Below, piece after piece: positions 2,086-20,760 of a DNA stretch of 64,000 nucleotides. Source of the stretch: Saururus chinensis (Eukaryota; Streptophyta; Magnoliopsida; Piperales; Saururaceae). The position numbers and the translations under genes are program-made. Numbering within the stretch: the stretch's first letter is position 1; each line of letters starts with the position of its first letter. The notes below the pieces were generated by a model. The model had not been told where the DNA came from, did no database searches, and saw only the letters and a list, made by a program, of their open reading frames with translations. Location: assembly GCA_035235625.1 (NCBI GenBank), contig CP141141.1, positions 9,979,968 to 10,043,967 on the forward strand. The letters are read 5' to 3'.

Positions 2086-3178
2086 ATGCACATAATATAA
2101 GCACTTTTAGATACCCTATTTTATGCATTTTATGATTATTTTTTTATTAATATTGGCTTATTTGAGTTTAATTATGTTATATAGGTTTTGATGAATTTAA
2201 TTCGTGACGAGGTTATTTTAGAGCAAAAGGGAAACTTGATAAAGTTGAAAGAGCCTATATGATGGAGTTGACAAAAGACGCGGGTGATTCTAGGGGCAGC
2301 CTTCATGTCAAAAGAAACTTAGCAAAATAATCAATAGAGAGAGGGAGAGAAGAGCCTTCATGTGGATCATTTTCATGAAGAGCATAGTTCCATTTTCAAG
2401 ACCAAGCCCACGAGCCAATAGAAGAAAACTAAAGAGACAACAATAAGGAAAGGAAAAATAGGAAGAGCAGCCAACAATCCAATTCAAGGATCAGCAATTT
2501 GCAGCTAACATTCCAATTCAAGACCCAACACACCATAGAAATAAAAAGCAAAAACCAAAGACAGAGAAGAGAAATAACATTCGGAACAAAGGCCAACTGA
2601 TTTAACCAAGGAAATAGAAAATTTTAGTAGAAAATGAATTCAGAAACAAAAGCAACAAAATAGAGAGAAATAGAAGAAGTTCCAACATCCCATGTCCATA
2701 AACAATAGCAAGTAACCAATGGAAAGTCAGCAGCTACATCCAGGAATAAGACTAGCAGAAACAAAGCCATGTACAAATGTAACATCCTGGGTTTTGGAAA
2801 CAATTGTCATTGCAACATTTTTTTTCTTAAAACTTATTTTTTGGAAAAGTACCTGACCAGGATTTATTTTTCTTTCAAAATCATCGCGGATGTTTTTATC
2901 ATACCATTAATATAATGATATTTACAAAATGTATACATTGTCAGGACCCCTCAGCCATGTACAAATGAAACAACAATTTAAAATAGCACACCTGGTAAAG
3001 CAGTAAATAGCTCAAGCTTCTATCTTTCCAACTTATCCCACAAAAGAGATGCACCCCGCTTTGCACACTTGTTGAAATCCTCCAGTTTTCTAGAATTCAC
3101 GGCTTCACAACCAGCAACACCAAGCATAAACCAACAATGAATGTAGAGAGGGGAAAGGATATGGATTTGGTGCACTCG

Positions 3179-6100
3179 TGTAAGACCCCTAACCCTAACC
3201 CAATTTATTTTAGTTAATTAGGTTGTTATTATGTGGTTTTAGTGTTAATTTGGCTGGTTTGTCTTATTTTGAGATAAAAGATGATTAACGATAGTTGAAG
3301 TCAATGTTTTCTTCATTTTATTAGTTTTAATGTTAAACTAAGTTTATCCAAAATTTTCTAGATTTTTTTGGTAATTTTTTTAAAAAGCAGTGTGGGGGTC
3401 CCACTGTGGACCTCATGTTCATAATTTAGGGTGATGGGTCCCATGAGAACCTAAACTCGACTTATTTCATCATTAAAGTGTTTCAAAAAAATTAAATTTT
3501 GTTTTAGACCTAAAATGAGCAAATTATATTTTTTTAATATTCGTACCTCTAATTTCTAATTCATATACCCCATAACTTACTATAAATAAAAACTCTGACT
3601 TCATTCCTACTTGAGAAGGGCTAAGATCTAGGAGGCTGAGAAGCCCTAATCCCCATTCCAAAAGACGAAAGCCTTTTTTAAGTAAGATTAGTCTTGATTT
3701 TTCATTAATCTTTTAAGGTTTTGCTTATTATTTCTTAATCCGATATTTTTCAAGGTTGAATCTTGTTTTACTCTGCTAAAGTTTCTTATTTTAATCTATA
3801 TTTCAAACCTCTAATGAGGGATTTTTGTTTTTAGACAAAGAAAACCTTAAATCTATGAGTTTTTAAGTGATTTATGTTTAAATAATTGGATTTATCAAGG
3901 TATTAACTAAACTCTAATTGGGGGTAGGAATTTGAAGAGATTCAATCTTCGATTTTGGACTGAGATCTCACTAAAGGTAAGGGTTATTCTTCCAAAATGG
4001 GTTTATGTTTCGGATTTGATGTTTGGGATGGTTTATGTGGGTTTTGCTTGATGTTGAGCTTTATTGTTGGTTGAAGTAAAACATGATCTTTTTAGTAATT
4101 TTCTTGTGTTTTAGTTGATAAATGACTAGATTTATCATTTTCTAAGCTTATATTTTAATATCATGATGTTTGGAAGTGAGATTTGAATGTTCATGTATAT
4201 TTTGTGTATTTTTTGGTTTTGGGTTTGCAAGGTTGAAAATGAACTAGGGTTTACTGTACATGCATTTGAACGGCCTTGTAGGCATTCGAACAGCCAGGCG
4301 ATCAAACGGATGGCTGGCCGATCGATCGGCCAGGCGTTCAAATAGCCTTCTAACCGATCAAACGACTCAATAGTAGTTTTGCTATTTTGTTATTTCCATG
4401 TTTTTCTTTTTAAATCTCGCATTATGATTATAAAGAGTTATTTTTATTTGGAAATACTACTGTGAAGACATGAATTGTATCTTGAAAGCTATGATATTTT
4501 TCAAGTATGAAATTGGTTACATGTTATTAGATGTTAGCATGTTGTTCTTCTTATCCTAAAGTCATGTTGAGTGATTCTTCATGATTTACTTAGGACTCCA
4601 TCAAGTTTTAAGCATGAGAATGAGCATGCATGCTTTCACATGTTATGCTAAATTGTGGGTGAACTATATCTCCATGTCTAGCTTAAGTGTAGTGAGGATT
4701 ATGCTTAGCTAAGTCTAGCATGAAGTTGTAAAAGACTTGGACTTGTGTTTTTCGGGTTTTTTTACAGGGTTTTGTTAATGATTTCAGTAAGAAAGAACCA
4801 TGATAGAATCATGAAAGTATGCTTAATGCATAATGAGGGTTTGTTCATGAAGCATATATATGTACTTAGATTTGAACACTAGCACGTATGTACTATGTTT
4901 TATGCATCATGAAAAAAAATTTATGAATGAGATTTATTGAGATTAGCAGGGATTGATCAATTGGATGCAATTGAGTGATATTACTTGCTAGATTAATCGA
5001 TCAATGACTTATCGAATTGGTTGGGTCTGAAATGACATGATTTCGTTTTGAGTTCCTTTTGGAACATGGATCCTCCCCGGGTTGAGTTGAGATGAGTTAT
5101 TGTGGTTGAGGTTAATTTATTGAGTTATATGAACCCTAAGAATCTAATATGGTATGCCCTTGTGCATCGGCTACCATGCGTTCTAGGTTTCCTTTGAGGA
5201 AATCAAACTCTTCCCCGCAAGAGATGTTCAAGGTGAACACACTACTTTAGTTCTCCGTGAGGAGATCAGACGTTCCTAATCAGGACTATCCAGGGTGAGC
5301 AGATTACTCTAAGTTTCTGTGAGGAAATCAGACCTTCTTTTTTAGATTGTCCAGGGCAAGCAAAGAGGCTAACTACCCCAATGCCTTAGGTTTCTATATA
5401 GGAAATTGAACTATGTCCAGGGTGGGTGGTGAGATTGTATTTCTCTCCATGATGGAGACATTCACCATTGTTTATAATGCATGTGTATGAGATATTATTA
5501 TACCCAGTTACACATGTTGTGTAGGGATAATTGAGTTTATGTGACACATATGGATATGGTTTGCTATGCATGATTTTTGATAGTGTGATTGAGACACTCT
5601 TGTGCAGGATGAATGTTTGTGATTGAGAATGATTATGCATACTATGGATAGTGTGATTGAAACACTCTTATGTAGGATGAATGTATACAATAAAGATGGA
5701 TCATAAATGAGATGATATTGTGTTATGCTATGTGGAATGATATGCTAGATGAATGTATGCATTGAGAATGAATCATGAATGAGATGATATTATGATATGT
5801 CATGTGGAATAGTATAGAGATATGTTGATGATATCATGAGTATGTGTATATGATGAGTAGTCATGATATAGAAATGCACATGTTATGCAAATGTCCCATG
5901 ATAAATGAGTGTATTTTGTGTGATGGATTCTATGTGAAATATATGTGATGATTGTGGATTTCCTCTCTCGACATATAAACCTTGCTAAGTATTTTTACTC
6001 ACCCCTCTTTCTCATGTGTTTTCTATTTTGGGGTTGCATGGTGCAACATATAGGCGACAAGAACTCCCTCTATGAGAAGCGATCGGTGGGCGGTCTAGAG

Positions 6101-6412
6101 TAGGAGAGGATGCCTAGAGGCCCTCCATTCCTTCCTTGTTTATGCAGCTTGTTGTTTGGAGTTTTATGTCTTGATAACTTTATCATATACTTTGTTTGCC
6201 ATTTTGGCATTAGACTCATGACTTTTATCATATATCTCAAAATCTCAATGCCACATACAAATCATCACATTAGGTGTCTTCCCCTCATCTCTAGGGAGGA
6301 GTTATAACTAACTTTAGAAACTGTTTTTTTACCTTAGCTAACACGTCTCCTAAGCTGCAAACATAGGGGAGGTAACACCCTACCTTGCTATGATGCTTAA
6401 TAAGGTCCCCTT
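3179..6412 (+). mobile_element. Long gypsy-type LTR (same family as the solo LTR at 23.4 kb)
   Basis: It begins TGTAAGACCCCTAACC and shares ordered blocks with the element at 23379-26704: a 'ggtcccac' tract, a TATA-like 'actataaataaaaa' at 3580-3594, an 'agggctaag...ccctaatccc' leader, the AACGGCC/GATCGATC cluster at 4264-4371, a 'gtatgcc...gttctagg' block near 5150 and a 'ggggttgcatggtgcaaca' block near 6030. It also carries loosely repeated ATGAATGT/GAGATGAT units at 5580-5830. The 3' end is uncertain: either the 'ggggaggtaaca' ending just before 6385, or about 6412. No matching 5-bp duplication was found. No coding capacity. Confidence 0.6.
4264..4371 (+). repeat. Cluster of paired GATCGAACGGCC-like motifs in the LTR
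   Basis: Successive GAACGGCC, TTCGAACAGCC, GATCAAACGG and GATCGATCGGCC units are spaced by short G/C-rich linkers. The same arrangement recurs at 24456-24620 and, more weakly, at 60999-61100. Confidence 0.7.
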
Positions 6413-7861
6413 ATGGTCACTCTCAAATTAAACCCATACAATAGATATACTAACTAATAAAAAATAAAAAAGCACACTTAAATTAAATAAAATTGCCAAA
6501 ATTTTGAAATGTTATAGTATGAACCAACAGAATATAAATAAAGGAAATAAGACTTTAAGGGGGAAAGAATTGAGCAAGAAGAAAGCTTACAAAATAAATG
6601 ATTAAACAAAACAAGAAGCATCTATTATGGGTTGAAATTGAAGCTTGAGAAAGGCATGGAAGTTGTTGTCCAGCAAGTATAAAAACATAGCAGAGATTTT
6701 AGAAAATCGGAATTGAGAAAAAGTCATAATTCAGTGAAGACTTCAATCGATTTTAGCCTCCAAAATTGATCAACATAGAGTTCTAGAGCCAGAGAATTCA
6801 AGTAGAAGTCAAGAGAAACAAAGCAAGATGCAAAAGAAAAGATTTATCCAATCATGGGTCACTGTAGCACCATATGAAGGTTGAAGACGATGAACATCGA
6901 TATTGTAACAGTTCAATTTTGGTTGATTTTTTTTCTTGATTTTTCTTCAGCACTTGTAATCCCTTTTTCACTTATTTCAATGAAGATTTTTGCTCTTAGA
7001 GTAATGAGAGGCTAAATTTTTTTAACTAGGGCTTGGATGAAGCTTCATTAAATTGTAGAACTTCATGATTATGTGACTTGATTATTTTTTCTTAATGGTG
7101 AGTTTAATGTTAATTGTTTTTACCTCTTTATTGATGGGATTAATTTGGATATGAGTTTAGTCATGCTTCTCTCATTATTTAAGTTAGTTTTCATAAATTC
7201 ATTACTTAGTTTTGTCTTTTTTCATATGGAAATTAGGTATTAGTTGTGATTTACATATGTGGATACAATCAATGACTTGATTTTAATCCGTTGAAGTAAG
7301 GAGGAACTATATATTTTGATTGTGCAAGAGTACTTAACAATGATATTTTTTTATAATAACAAATATTAATTTCTACATTATTATAAGATCAATGTAAAAA
7401 ATAATTAATGATCATAATTATAAGTTTATATTATTTAAAGAGTGTGGATTCCTATGCCCTAGTGTTTTAGTTATTTGGTATTCTAGTTATGTTGCATTAC
7501 TTCCTTAGCCCTAATTTAAGCTTTAGAACTTTAATTTGGATAGTCTCATTGCCTTTAAATTCTTATTTGCTTTTGTTAGTACTTTAGTAAATTTAATTAC
7601 TTTATATTTGTCAACTAAATTAGGGTTTAATTTATATTTGTCTATGTGGGATCAACATTCCATTTAGCCATTTGTCTACTATATATTTATATACTTGCAA
7701 GTAAACAATTAAAATTTAAATACAATTGTCGAAGCCCCAATTATGGACTGTCATAATGTCTAGCGCCAGAGAACACCTTCTTCTCTGGCACCGGCAGTGA
7801 GAATCTTATTCTACAATGCCGACAATCTTTTACTGATATGTGACAAATGACAGTCGAGCAT

Positions 7862-8035
7862 TTGATAGCTGACAGTCAACTATCTCATATTTAAAATTTG
7901 CTTTATTTTTTTCTTTTATCTATGTAGCTTGTTAAGATAGTTCATAATAAATACTTAGGGAGATATTGTCACTCATATTGTTGTCTTATATCCCCTTTAT
8001 TGCAACATATCTAATTGTCGACTCTTGATTATCAA
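7862..8035 (-). repeat. Right arm of the long terminal inverted repeat
   Basis: The reverse complement of this arm follows the left arm at 1918-2085 block by block (GTCGACAAT, 'gttgcaataaag', 'atataagacaaca', 'gaactatcttaacaa'). The outer flanks were not matched to a target duplication. Confidence 0.6.
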
Positions 8036-8204
8036 TACGAAGTTTTGGTTGCCTACATACGTATTGGATATTATCTATGATGTTATTACAATATGACCAG
8101 ATCCGAACATAGTTCTACCTAATGGCTATTACATGCATCAAGCATCACAAAATCATATATGCTAAAATACATATTTCATTATATCCAAATATATCATTCG
8201 GAGT

Positions 8205-8375
8205 CAAGACTGAAATCACATAAATCATCAGAGTTAGATAGAAATCTCATAATTTATTCGAGTTAGATGAAAATCTCATAAATCATCGAAGTCAGACAAA
8301 AAATTTTATAATTCATCGGAATCATACAGAAAATCTTATAAATAATCAGAATCAAAAGCTAACAAATCAATGGAA
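8205..8375. repeat. Short tandem repeat, ~38-bp unit, about 4-5 copies
   Basis: Imperfect units of the form 'AAATCATCAGAGTTAGATAG' followed by 'AAATCTCAT' are repeated head to tail. A second, looser run of 'AGATC/ATATCA' units follows at about 8430-8560. Confidence 0.6.
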
Positions 8376-8734
8376 TTACTCATTTTGCTCTATCATAGAG
8401 CAAAGCAGAATACAATAGAGTGGAATGGATCCTATCAGATCCCTCTGGACCACATCAGATCTCATCAACCATGTTAGATTGTATCAGATCATATCAAAGC
8501 ATATTAGACTATAACAGAGTATATCATAGATTGTCCAATCATATTAGATCATAGCAACTTCATATATCTTAATTAGTATATTAATATTACTAATTAAGAT
8601 GTGCATGCATATAAGTCAATTAACATCCTAAGTTAATTACTTAGGATGCCTACTTATTCTTATACTTATATTAAAACATAAGGTCATAAATGCTTACTCC
8701 TTTGAAATATTGGAAGTGGCGGCGTTCGGAGTTG

Positions 8735-16045: not shown

Positions 16046-17199
16046 ATATGTGTCATTTGTCTAGTTTATTAGTTTATTTCTTTGTCAAAATTATATCAAG
16101 AAACCATGTGTATGTATTGTGTCTTAGAATATGATTTATGGTTGTTGTGGTCAAGTTAGATTTGGAATTGACATATTTGATCAAGGAAGGAGAGTGAAAA
16201 ATGTTGAAGGGTTTTGAAACTTATTCAGATCACATTTACATACAAAAATTACTTAGAGAGGTTTCAAAAGTGATTTTAGTGGTTTCAAATGGATTTATGA
16301 TAAAAATGACAAAAGGTAAATTTATAGGCAGAACGATCAATCACTGTAAAACAAGGCCAATCAAACAATTGATCACCCATTGGATCAGCCCTATGCAAAA
16401 TAAAGCCAAGACTTATTGATCAATCATTTGAATTATCATGCACATTAAAAACAATGACTGATCAATCGCTATTTAGAATGGTCAATTGTTTTAAGGATTA
16501 GTAACTCTAATTAAGACATGTTGATTTTAATTTTATTCCTTACTCAAAAGCAAGTCTTAAAGCAACCAAAGGAGTTATATAAGGGTTATAAGATTACAAA
16601 ATTTGCGAGAGAAAAACCTAGAGGAGAAAAGAGAGAAGAGAAAAAGGGTTTACACATTTACTTGTTGTTTTTCAAAGGATTATTCACATGAAGCTTTGAG
16701 TTGAAGATCTATGGTGAATTGAAGAAGACAATGAAAAATTAAAAGAGCTTATACATAGAGATTTTAAAAAGGTGTTGGAGCTTATCTTTAATATGAGATT
16801 GAAATTTTCCACAAGGTCAAAATCAAGACAACAAGAAGTACTTGTGAAGACTAAAATGAGACAAAGATAAAGCAAGGAGAAGAAAGTTTCAAGAGCTTCA
16901 GTGAGAATACTTAAATACCAATAATAATGATCTAAATAAGAGGAACTTGTATTAGAGTTTAAACAAGGTTGGTGGTTTACTATTTTCAATGTAAAAGTCT
17001 TAGTTTCTAGTGCATTCATTTGGTTCCTTTGGAACTACCATAATTTTTTACCCTAGTTGGGATTTTTTATGTAAATTATTGTGTTCATGTATAGATTGAA
17101 TAATGGTTGGCTAATTGATATATCATGACTGAGATTAAAGAGAATATTAGGTTTTAATTATTTTCACTTAAAAAAATTGTGCAAAGAGGCTAGAACTCT

Positions 17200-17558
17200 T
17201 ATTGTGAACGTCCTAAAGGCTGCCACTGGGGCTACATGCTAAGGTAATTAGGGTTTTAATTATGTAATAAAAGTAATTAAGTAAATAGATTAATTAGGGT
17301 ATTAGTGGTTTTCTTTTAATTATATTATTGTGCCTTAGGCGTCTATTAGTGGGCCCATTAGTTAGTTTATTTAAATATAAGAACTATACCCTAATTGAAG
17401 TTAGTGAATAAATTATTATCTTATCTTCTCCTTTTTCTTATGTGCCTCTCCCTCTTGTCCCGTGGCCATGTTGCTCCCTCTCCTATTTCTCAGTCATCTT
17501 ATGCTGCACCCTTCCCCTGTGTCGGCTTTCACGTTATTGTAGATGTTCATCCACAATA
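17200..17558 (+). repeat. 5' LTR of the gene-carrying retroelement
   Basis: 359 bp. It aligns along its whole length with 20313-20670. Its ends have decayed from TG...CA to TA...TA by C:G to T:A changes, the pattern expected from methylcytosine deamination. Conserved blocks are 'gtaattagggttttaattatg', 'gattaattagggtatta', 'ccctaattgaagttagtgaat' and 'gcctctccctcttgtcc'. The open frames here are not genes. Confidence 0.9.
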
Positions 17559-17559
17559 T

Positions 17560-17571
17560 TAGTATTGAAGT
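17560..17571 (+). promoter_or_regulatory. Decayed primer-binding site (initiator Met tRNA type)
   Basis: TAGTATTGAAGT directly after the 5' LTR, compared with the common plant PBS TGGTATCAGAGC: 7 of 12 positions match and all five differences are transitions. The position is right, but the match is weak by itself. Confidence 0.5.
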
Positions 17572-18391
17572 CCAAAGTTTAATGGGATAATGGATAGAGA
17601 TACTCGCAAAGATTGTAGCTTCCGTTGTGAAGATACATGTGGAGGTTGCAAATTCGCTAGAGAATCTGACGAGGCTTGTAATATCCCTGGCAATGCCTCC
17701 ACCCTGATTTGTGCAGAAGAAGAGGATGAACCAGTTCGTGCGTGGATAGGGCCTTTCGTTGCCAGAAGAACCCGTTCATGCGGAGTAAGAGAAAGTATGT
17801 AAGAGAAATTATTCCCAAGGATTCTATTCTTGAAGGAGTCCAGCAGAGTCTGTCGACTGTGTCTACTCCTAGCCAAACCAGTCGCTCCTACCGGTTCATT
17901 TCCCCACAACTGGCCCAATGATTGCTACCCTCTGCTGGACTCAGCCATCACCCAGCCGGGATTCACCTTCCGATTCACTGGCACCACCATCCAGCCACCG
18001 TTGTCATCGCAAACTATGGCCACCAGAATTTTCCTGCCTTCTGGAGAACCCTTCTGCTGCCTGGGTGTCTCCCGTGGATGCGATGGAAGGAGATCAGAGG
18101 AGCGTCACAAGCAGAGAACAGAGAGACGGAGTTTGAACTGGGTCGGTTTTGGCAACTGCGATCCACCCGGGATTTGCTTACTGGAAATGACAATTAATTT
18201 GATTCTTCCTGACGCTGCCTCTTGCCGTGGGAAGAAGCCCCAGAGCTTCCAGGCCGTGGGGGGTATTATCTATGACCACCATCTATTCTATTCGACGAAT
18301 TGCTCCAGAGCTTCCTGGCCGCCACAAAGATCAAGCCTGCGGACGTCTAAACCCATTTCACTCCTCCCTCCTCTGGAAGTTGGAGTTTGTG
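17572..18391 (+). other. Unassigned internal segment of the retroelement
   Basis: About 820 bp between the primer site and the xylulose kinase start. Several overlapping open frames occur (for example a 194-codon frame at 17830-18414), but none shows a domain, a zinc knuckle or other gag signature that I recognise. The frame at 18227-18496 is open straight through the ATG of the xylulose kinase fragment, so part of this may be the 5' UTR of that gene. The rest could be a fourth captured piece or old gag leader. Confidence 0.5.
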
Positions 18392-18712
18392 ATGGAGTAT
18401 GCCCTGCCGGATGATGCATTCTTTCTGGGTTTCAATATTTCTACCCAATCTTTAAAAGCAACTATCTTGGATTCCAACTTCAAAATTGTTGCTTAAGAGA
18501 CTGCTCATTTTGATTCTGAGTTGCCGCACTGCAAGACAGAGGATGGATTTTACGGGAATTGGCTCACCAACTTTGATGTGGGCTGAAGCTCTAGATCTTC
18601 TCTTGGAAAAATTTACTAAGTCAAAGTTGGCTTTTGGCAAAATAGCAGATGTCTCCGGTAGTGGCCAACAACATGGAAGTGTCTTTTGGAAGAAAGGAAG
18701 TTTGATAAGTTT
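18392..18712 (+). pseudogene. Captured xylulose kinase (XK2-like) N-terminal fragment
   Basis: The start MEYALPDDAFFLGF is followed by STQSLKATILDS, then (after an in-frame TAA) FDSELPHCKTEDG, then in another frame SPTLMW and VSGSGQQHGSVFWKKGS. These are the N-terminal landmarks of plant D-xylulose kinase (FGGY carbohydrate kinase family): the FLGFD-STQSLK phosphate-loop region, here with N for the conserved D, and the SGSGQQHGSV substrate region. The intact enzyme phosphorylates xylulose to xylulose 5-phosphate. Only about 110 codons survive. A deletion of about 8 codons near 18550 shifts the frame, and the premature stop makes it non-functional. No intron is seen. The sequence then departs from the family at about 18712. 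Confidence 0.85.
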
Positions 18713-18805
18713 CCATCTCCACGGTAAGCACCTATTCACGCAGATTGCTGCTAGTTATCCGCAGATCACCCACGTCTGGGTCAACTACTCCACTACCCCC
18801 AGATT

Positions 18806-19521
18806 GGCCAGCGGTTCTTACTACTCATGGTAGAATGTCGCGCTACAGATGCTCGGAGAGGTGAAGATTGGTGTTGTCAAGCTCGCGTTGGAGAAGCATG
18901 GCCTCACTCTCTCCTCTTACTTTGACTCTGCCAAGGTTGCCTATGTTCTTCAGTGTATTGGATGGGCTGGCATTGTTCTCCTAGAAGCCACTAGAGAGAA
19001 AGTCATTGCACTCAATGATGCCCTGGCTTTACCCTTCGGTGTGGTTACATGGTGGTACAACAGCAATGACACTGAGTTGGTGGTTCTTTTCATGGGTGAC
19101 ACCTCCAAGGGCCACAAGGTAGGAGAATTCACCAACTTCTATCTCACTGGTGCTAATGGCCTATTCACTGGTTTCTTTTCAGAGTTTGTTGGTCGAGCTT
19201 GGGACCTTGATGTTGATGATGTTGCCAAGCTTATCAAAAGCCAATCTGGAAGTGGCATTGTGAAGGTGAAAGAAGGATTCAACATGTCGGAGCCCTCAAT
19301 GGAAGATTGAAAGGGCCTGGTCCTCAACTGCGGGGAGGCTCCTTTGGGTGTTAACATACCAAATGCAGGCTGAGCTGTTGTTCTCAATACTCAAAACCTG
19401 CCCTTGATCAAAGAAGTTGGACTGAGTGCTAACGGTGTTAAGATTGAGGGAAACTCCATGTGCCTTCCAGGATTTTCTTGTGACTCTGTTTCCCAAGTGA
19501 CTTATGTTATCAAGGAAAATG
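18806..19521 (+). pseudogene. Captured 11S-globulin / glutelin type-D-like cupin fragment
   Basis: The frame from GSYYSW (near 18815) runs through KLALEKHGLTLSSYFDSAKV, then GWAGIVL, ALPFGVVTWWYN, ELVVLFMGDTSKGHK, then LTGANGLFTGFFSEFVGRAW, and (past a stop near 19307 and a shift near 19370) the second cupin start with LPLIKEVGLSANGVKI and MCLPGFSCDSVSQVTYV. This order is that of the non-storage 11S-globulin-like proteins annotated as glutelin type-D 1-like in dicots: two germin-type cupin barrels, here the first barrel and the beginning of the second. About 230 codons read without an intron. The longest intact frame is 18849-19310 (153 codons). Stops make it a pseudogene. The join to aconitase sequence is at about 19521. 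Confidence 0.85.
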
Positions 19522-20245
19522 ACTGAGTCCTTCTGAAAGATATGAAGTCAGATTGGTATTCTTGCCTTGATAGTCAAGTTGGATTTAAGGGTTTGTTCCA
19601 AAGGAATTCCAAAACAAGGTTGCAAACTTTTCACTTTAAGAGCATCCAGTAGAGCTCAATCATGGTACTAATACATCAAATCCTAGAGTAATGCTTGGTG
19701 CTGCCTTGGTTACAAATAAGGTGTGTGACTTGGGTATGGAGGTCAAACCTGAGATTAAAACAAGCCTTGCTCCTGATTTTGGCGTTGTTACCAAATATTT
19801 GCAGTAGAGTGGTCTGTAGAAGTATTTGGATCAGCAAGGATTTATCATTGTTGGGTATGGTCACGCTACATGCATTGGAAACTCAGGTGGTCTTGATGAG
19901 TCTGCTGCTTCTGCTATTATAGAGAACGATATAGTTGCTGCAACTGTTTTTGAGGGAAGACAATTACCCTGCTTCAACTTCCTTAGTTGTTGCCCATGCA
20001 CTTGCTGGTACGGTTACTCTTGATTGTGAGGAGCATACTGGTACTGGAAAAGATGCCAAGAGTGTCTACTTCAAGGATACCTGGCCATCGATAGAAGAGA
20101 TTGTTGAGGTTGTTCAATCCTGCGTGTTGCCAGATATGTTTAAGAGTCCATATGATGCAATAACCCAGGGAAATTAAATGTGGAATTAGTTTTCAGTTTC
20201 AGCAACCACTCTTTACTCATGGGCTCCTAATTCAACTTATATCAA
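19522..20245 (+). pseudogene. Captured aconitate hydratase central fragment
   Basis: Recognisable in order: [95 protein letters not shown], then (new frame) [46 protein letters not shown], and a last part resembling TLYSW-PNSTYI. This is the plant aconitase 4Fe-4S region. The cluster motif that is normally G-C-T-T-C-I-G-N-S-G reads G-H-A-T-C here, so one cluster cysteine is lost. Several codons between AAxV and FEGR, and again after FEGR, are deleted. Stops interrupt it. Plant aconitase genes have many introns, yet about 240 codons run on without one, pointing to a spliced-RNA origin. Confidence 0.88.
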
Positions 20246-20312
20246 AGCCTTGGTTCGTTGATATGAGTCTTTAGTCACCTCGAGAACTAGGTGATGCTGA
20301 AGCGTGGTGGAA

Positions 20313-20670
20313 TGTTGTGAATGTCCTAGGGGCTACTACTGAGGCCACATTTTAGGGTAATTAGGGTTTTAATTATGTAATAAGGGCAATTAGGTTAATA
20401 GATTAATTAGGGTATTAATGGGTTTTTTTAATTATATTAATATACCTTAAGCATCTGTTAGTGAGCTCATTAGTTAGTTTATTTAAGTGTAAGGGTTATG
20501 CCCTAATTGAAGTTAGTGAATGAATTATTGTCTTGTCTTCTCCTCTTTCCTCTCTGCCTCTCCCTCTTGTCCGGTAGTCATGCTTCTCCCTCTCCCATTT
20601 CCTGGTTGTCCTGTGCCGCTCCCTTCCCCTACGCTAGCTTTCAGGCCATTCTGGACGCCCGTCCACAACA
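20313..20670 (+). repeat. 3' LTR of the gene-carrying retroelement
   Basis: 358 bp with intact TGTTGTG...CACAACA ends, which form a 7-bp inverted terminal pair. It is preceded by the G-rich 'gaagcgtggtggaa', a plausible decayed polypurine tract, and followed by the ACTCT duplication. Confidence 0.9.
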
Positions 20671-20760
20671 ACTCTTAATTCCTACTTTTTATAGTATTAG
20701 TTTTAAGAGTAATCTAATAATCCGCTAGGTCAATTAGACGGATATTCAACTCATATCTCA

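Follow-up and report, generated by a model that had tools for sequence, protein, structure and literature searches.

A 64,000-nucleotide window of the Saururus chinensis genome (contig CP141141.1, positions 9,979,968 to 10,043,967 of the forward strand; coordinates given without a prefix are positions in this window) contains an old, decayed non-autonomous long terminal repeat (LTR) retroelement that carries pieces of three cellular genes, a xylulose kinase, an 11S-type cupin and an aconitase. The cupin and aconitase pieces derive from spliced mRNA, and relatives of the element elsewhere in the genome carry pieces of other genes. The element very probably belongs to a gene-capturing family and was built by template switching onto spliced host mRNAs.

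The element is about 3.5 kb long and has an interior of 2,754 bp between LTRs of 359 and 358 bp (Table 1). The LTR lengths and the ACTCT target duplication reported in a first-pass annotation of the window proved exact, and their coordinates were reproduced. Terminal-repeat retrotransposons in miniature (TRIMs) are very short elements that have small LTRs and hardly any interior, and the dimensions found here lie outside that class; two direct LTRs with a short target duplication are the structure of a non-autonomous LTR element. The LTRs are 80.8% identical over 355 bp, where LTR2 compared with 200 shuffled LTR1 sequences gave a best score of 34.6 bits, and a perfect 5-mer pair at the ACTCT spacing was met at 27 of 20,000 random places in the window. 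Over 360 aligned sites the two LTRs differ at 72 (58 transitions and 14 transversions), a Kimura two-parameter distance (K2P) of 0.24, so that the insertion is old; this pair is the most diverged of the 12 measured in the family, the others having K2P values of 0.078-0.201. A tree built from 33 LTRs of the family places the 5' LTR as sister to its own 3' LTR with support 0.973. Most family members have an LTR that starts with TGTTGTG, as against TATTGTG in the 5' LTR here. The primer site and purine-rich end are decayed in this copy and clear in several relatives, and in several other members the primer site reads TTGGTATCAGAGC, which we take to be of the initiator-Met tRNA type. The interior has many stops and frameshifts.

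The three gene pieces lie on the sense strand, head to tail, and no gag or pol match to Pfam was found in the ten sense interior open reading frames (ORFs) scanned, as the first-pass annotation had it; its identification of the three genes also held. The kinase piece went unnoticed in a Pfam scan of single ORFs and was recovered by comparison with PDB, in which human xylulose kinase 4bc2 is its sole match (E 8.4e-12); no PDB match was obtained with the first 35 residues by themselves, nor any match in the protein database with a 63-residue kinase query. The cupin piece matches Pfam Cupin_1 (E 3.7e-11) and plant glutelin type-D/11S proteins (best E 3.3e-100, 68% identity), with top protein matches in Magnolia, Aristolochia and Tasmannia. 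The aconitase piece falls below the Pfam cut-off (E 0.0039) and matches plant aconitases with a best E of 9.5e-43 and 66% identity. In the reference proteins the captured spans are about residues 5-259 of 356 for the cupin and about 481-751 of 1001 for the aconitase. The 5' third of the interior, in which no host gene was recognised, consists of family leader and core segment, which accounts for the stretch 17559-18391 left unexplained in the first-pass annotation; the core segment is common to L035, L037 and a copy at C7:30679641, with small blocks in L038, L040, L044, L046 and L049.

The cupin and aconitase pieces were matched to the genome. The cupin donor lies on C5, the closest aconitase gene on C8 and the element itself on C2. 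At the C5 cupin there are two exon matches about 1.2 kb apart, with a 322-codon open frame round the second; a GT site ends exon 1 and an AG site precedes exon 2, and the element is continuous there, crossing the exon 1/exon 2 join without an intron between 18954 and 18955 at base level. Three many-exon aconitase genes were found, on C8, C6 and C11, and over one exon the element agrees with them at 135/150, 121/150 and 65/79 ungapped sites, respectively; the exon preceding that one is 94% identical to C8, which is the closest of the three. The AAG/GG exon join of the aconitase (about residue 506) is crossed without an intron between 19589 and 19590, again at base level, and further exon joins are crossed near residues 570-590, 631, 672 and 706, as judged by match coordinates. 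Since the element crosses exon joins of both genes without introns, spliced mRNA was captured, and for these two pieces the element contains exons only, as does a Bs1-type element.

The cupin piece differs from its donor at 21, 24 and 13 sites in the three codon positions, a spread that points to an unconstrained copy. Its K2P from the donor, 0.087, does not exceed half of the LTR divergence (0.12), so that capture of the cupin probably preceded this insertion by only a short time, a reading of the divergence that is qualified by rates differing between regions. Two other places were considered as donor genes and rejected as decayed copies with in-frame stops, namely C7:30679641 and, for the aconitase, C1:59844970, which the C8 gene replaces. 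The C1 aconitase copy (G000:C1:59844949-59846927) is interrupted by about 1.4 kb between direct repeats CACTTACT, an 8-bp duplication of the kind typical of hAT-type DNA transposons.

The cupin and aconitase pieces meet at CCGAGT, a 6-base microhomology that is found in both donors at identical codon phase, and the kinase/cupin join likewise keeps one frame. A query spanning the cupin/aconitase join gave 22 candidate places, all of which were scored, and none crosses the join except the element itself; in an interior search, the 40 places scored of 176 candidates included no second place that joins two of the three genes. The order kinase, cupin, aconitase had been suggested as possibly diagnostic of a family, which is not supported, the cupin/aconitase join occurring at no other scored place. 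Further copies with the same junctions, named in the first-pass annotation as proof of movement after capture, were not found for that join among the places scored; mosaics of other members do occur at two sites each, as described below.

Table 1. Features of the gene-capturing LTR element in the CP141141.1 window.
Feature	Position	Strand	Remarks
Whole element including target duplications	17195-20675		CP141141.1 window
ACTCT target-site duplication, 5' copy	17195..17199	.	
5' LTR, 359 bp	17200..17558	+	starts TATTGTG, ends CCACAATA
Decayed primer binding site	17559..17572	+	TTAGTATTGAAGTC
Family leader	17573..17798	+	parts common to L039, L040, L046, L049
Family core segment	17893..18391	+	no gene recognised; from interior comparison
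Xylulose kinase N-terminal piece	18392..18795	+	frameshifted; 20 nt fewer than C7 copy
Kinase/cupin join	18793..18800	+	about 2 nt overlap; one reading frame across
Cupin (glutelin type-D/11S-like) piece	18793..19528	+	about residues 5-259 of C5 donor
Cupin/aconitase join	19519..19528	+	CCGAGT microhomology; codon phase kept
Aconitase piece	19519..20278	+	about residues 481-751; closest gene on C8
3' terminal block	20265..20312	+	purine-rich end; from family comparison
3' LTR, 358 bp	20313..20670	+	TGTTGTG...CCACAACA
ACTCT target-site duplication, 3' copy	20671..20675	.	

When the 516-Mb genome was queried with the LTR, 1,070 places came up as first-look candidates; 40 of them, among them both LTRs of the element itself, were scored, and all 40 match. 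The family counts given here are lower bounds. We examined 20 regions round the top LTR matches, the members being picked by LTR similarity to this element and not as a random sample, and found 11 LTR pairs, one short rearranged element (L046) and 8 single LTRs, of which L036, L042 and L045 have perfect duplications, like solo LTRs. The LTR tree groups the two repeats of each element as sisters in all 12 pairs (this element included). L037, L039, L046, L048 and L050 have perfect target duplications, those of L032, L033, L035 and L040 agree at four of five bases, and an LTR end is unclear or truncated in L031, L038 and L044. The 3' block precedes the 3' LTR in 11 of the 13 members compared, the exceptions being L034 and L037, and some 340-390 bp at the 3' block are common to nine members; the leaders fall into several classes.

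The first-pass annotation had placed the element in a non-autonomous gene-capturing lineage, and this is borne out by relatives with LTR pairs and duplications of their own that carry other genes. We scanned sense frames of 13 other members (nine complete ones, L037, the partial L030 and L041, and one frame of L029) and found host-gene pieces in nine, eight of them above the Pfam cut-off and the ninth, in L038, by protein comparison. The pieces are DUF1005 in L031 and L041, importin-type HEAT and UBA in L039, FKBP in L040, pyruvate kinase in L048, PORR in L050, PPR in the frame of L029, a PLP enzyme in L030, and aconitase residues 72-149 (E 1.6e-24; 47-149 by a second comparison) in L038. L039 and L040 each have in addition a PPR match below the cut-off. 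No gag or pol was found in the sense frames scanned of these 13 members, and in six members the antisense frames were scanned as well, with no match above the cut-off. Pieces of more than one gene are joined in at least 4 of 14 members, namely this element, L029 (PPR with cupin), L039, and L040 (FKBP with a cupin piece of 30 residues, E 3.4e-5).

Mosaic interiors of this kind have moved after they were formed, since two of them are present at two sites each. The interiors of L040 (C4:22.8 Mb) and L049 (C4:45.5 Mb) have 3,292 bp in common, namely 2,858 bp at 87% identity and 434 bp at 91%, out of 3,559 bp, where the available L049 sequence ends, and the DUF1005 part common to L031 and L041 is 81% identical over 648 bp and 91% over 86 bp. 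L035 and L037 form another related interior pair. Pieces also pass between elements, because one cupin lineage is found in two elements with different breakpoints: L029 has donor cupin residues of about 118-236 downstream of its PPR piece, and of 339 common sites, 12 have a base that this element shares with L029 and not with the donor, 6 differ in this element only and 25 in L029 only, and at 1 each of the three sequences has a different base. Judged against sequences of the protein family, several of the 12 common changes look derived in the elements. Eight further cupin copies begin at residue 117-120.

These shared pieces raise the possibility, to which we give somewhat less than even weight, that the chimera arose mainly by recombination of copies that already carried single genes, the last round having shuffled modules. 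Besides the L029 cupin, the core-plus-kinase unit found also at C7:30679641 (84% identity) and an in-frame TAG common to the C1 aconitase copy and the element speak for this, and the TAG could alternatively be a parallel C-to-T change. Against it, the cupin and aconitase pieces of the element extend further into the donors than the other intron-free copies listed by the searches, and the identity of its aconitase exon pieces to the C8 gene is as high as 90-94%. Recombination between copies and direct switching onto mRNA are compatible, and the explanation that we favour includes both.

Six gene-gene boundaries were readable, and five are in frame: two of two in this element, one of one in L029 and two of two in L039, with the PPR/cupin boundary of L040 out of frame (0 of 1), so that the proposition that all joins keep the frame was rejected. 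Three of the six (two in L039, one in L040) depend on the PPR matches below the cut-off, and in L039 two stops and unassigned sequence lie between the gene pieces. Compared with an expectation of one third, five of six has a binomial P of about 0.018 in a post hoc hand calculation, and we treat the excess as a lead only. A wider reading, which we regard as doubtful, is that of a gene-shuffling family in which the LTRs, the primer site, the short 3' block and little more are constant, the interior being rebuilt through recurrent uptake of spliced mRNAs and exchange of pieces among members, with joined genes kept in frame; a long readable frame would then perhaps let the element RNA escape nonsense-mediated decay. 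In L029, PPR and cupin share a single stop-free frame of at least 320 codons (positions 2352-3311 of L029).

For the capture itself, template switching between co-packaged RNAs is the most likely mechanism. Another element would make the virus-like particle, and the RNA of the present element, retaining LTRs, primer site and short 3' block, would be co-packaged in it with spliced host mRNAs. Reverse transcriptase would switch at short matches between element RNA and host mRNAs and also between the RNAs of family members, and the product would have the order LTR, leader, core, xylulose kinase, cupin, aconitase, 3' block, LTR. The integrase of the partner would insert this product with a 5-bp target duplication, and decay would follow. 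Packaging, template switching and the supply of proteins in trans we infer, as we do the mobilisation in trans put forward in the first-pass annotation.

Several observations weigh against this account. The evidence for spliced capture comes from the cupin and aconitase pieces and leaves the kinase outside it, no kinase donor having been located in the genome searches, none of which was made with the kinase piece alone; the kinase/cupin overlap is only about 2 nt. Four of the 13 other members (L032, L033, L037 and L044) have no host gene above the cut-off, L032 having a weak TPR match only, and there are three antisense matches below the cut-off, the best being Ppx-GppA in L050 (E 0.0013). The autonomous partner was not found, no genome-wide partner search having been made. 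The gag-pol sequence in L035 was considered as this partner and rejected, because it has its own LTRs. It belongs to a nested element (L035, G000:C10:10250300-10260299, oriented 2822-8379; ORFs judged by eye) with LTRs of 436 and 447 bp that are 88.6% identical.

Successive insertion of three processed pseudogenes of the long interspersed nuclear element (LINE) type into an ordinary non-autonomous LTR element would agree with the intron-free copies of these gene pieces that exist elsewhere. We consider it very improbable: the pieces are all in sense orientation and directly abutting (with one 6-nt overlap), the reading frame carries on across both joins, neither the cupin nor the aconitase piece is 3'-anchored, both being internal, neither a poly-A run nor an internal duplication was noticed at the joins in the sequence, and relatives are built likewise with other genes. 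Least credible of all is capture at the DNA level in the Pack-MULE or Helitron manner or by read-through transduction of neighbouring genes, which are described routes of gene-piece uptake by plant transposons (PMC13317346; PMC2774510), but the introns are gone exactly at the exon joins, the donors are on other chromosomes, the element ends in LTRs, primer site and 5-bp duplication, and no locus with the three genes side by side in the element's order outside an LTR pair, the arrangement that the first-pass annotation had singled out as contrary to its reading, was present among the places scored.

Comparisons with known systems are drawn from those portions of the published accounts that were available to us. 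The closest precedent is maize Bs1, followed by the soybean TRIM GmaRetroS15. Bs1, an LTR element, contains segments from three cellular genes (PMC13317346), its captured segments are exons only (PMC4717578), and the title of the 2001 Bs1 paper speaks of a hybrid reading frame. The present element is like Bs1 in being an LTR element with parts of three cellular genes, exons only for cupin and aconitase; by the published description of Bs1 it differs in its genes and plant and probably in its LTRs, and here many members have differing gene sets. GmaRetroS15 has three gene pieces, one of which is exons 5-9 without introns, and gene-bearing soybean TRIMs are 1,172-1,449 bp long (PMC4717578). Our element, also an LTR element with pieces of three genes, is about 3.5 kb long, and exchange of pieces between members does not appear in the description of GmaRetroS15. 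Host gene fragments are likewise carried by LTR elements of maize, with 425 intact gene-carrying elements and at least 189 captures (PMC2774510), and of rice and sorghum, with 672 and 1,343 genes, respectively (PMC3726574). The maize survey, under its conditions, found none that contained fragments from more than one standard nuclear gene (PMC2774510), unlike the members with more than one gene reported here. In the LTR-mediated retroposition of Tan and co-workers, co-packaged mRNA is joined by switching at microsimilarity (reviewed in PMC5408686); the same co-packaging and switching would operate here, the difference being its recurrence in a single family and the exchange of captured pieces between members.

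What is new is that one family repeatedly joins genes and that pieces pass between its members, and searches of the open-licence literature on LTR gene capture showed no report of this family. Multi-gene LTR elements look rare in the accounts cited: Bs1 and a single soybean TRIM are the cases, and the 425-element maize survey has none. In this family the donors can be seen in one genome together with spliced joins, a join at microhomology and pieces that members share, and two questions, how LTR elements acquire mRNA and whether fused frames are under selection, can be tested there.

Five other long ORFs in the window gave no Pfam match. A separate captured N-terminal piece of aconitase, ending at residue 147-149, is found at five places: C10:35334673 (inside L038), C4:38204613, C5:16616127, C5:48328317 and C2:15214332. 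More cupin fragments lie at C5:34539131, C1:34973743, C1:35381656 and C10:10731009, and the two on C1, which are alike in score, may represent a local duplication.

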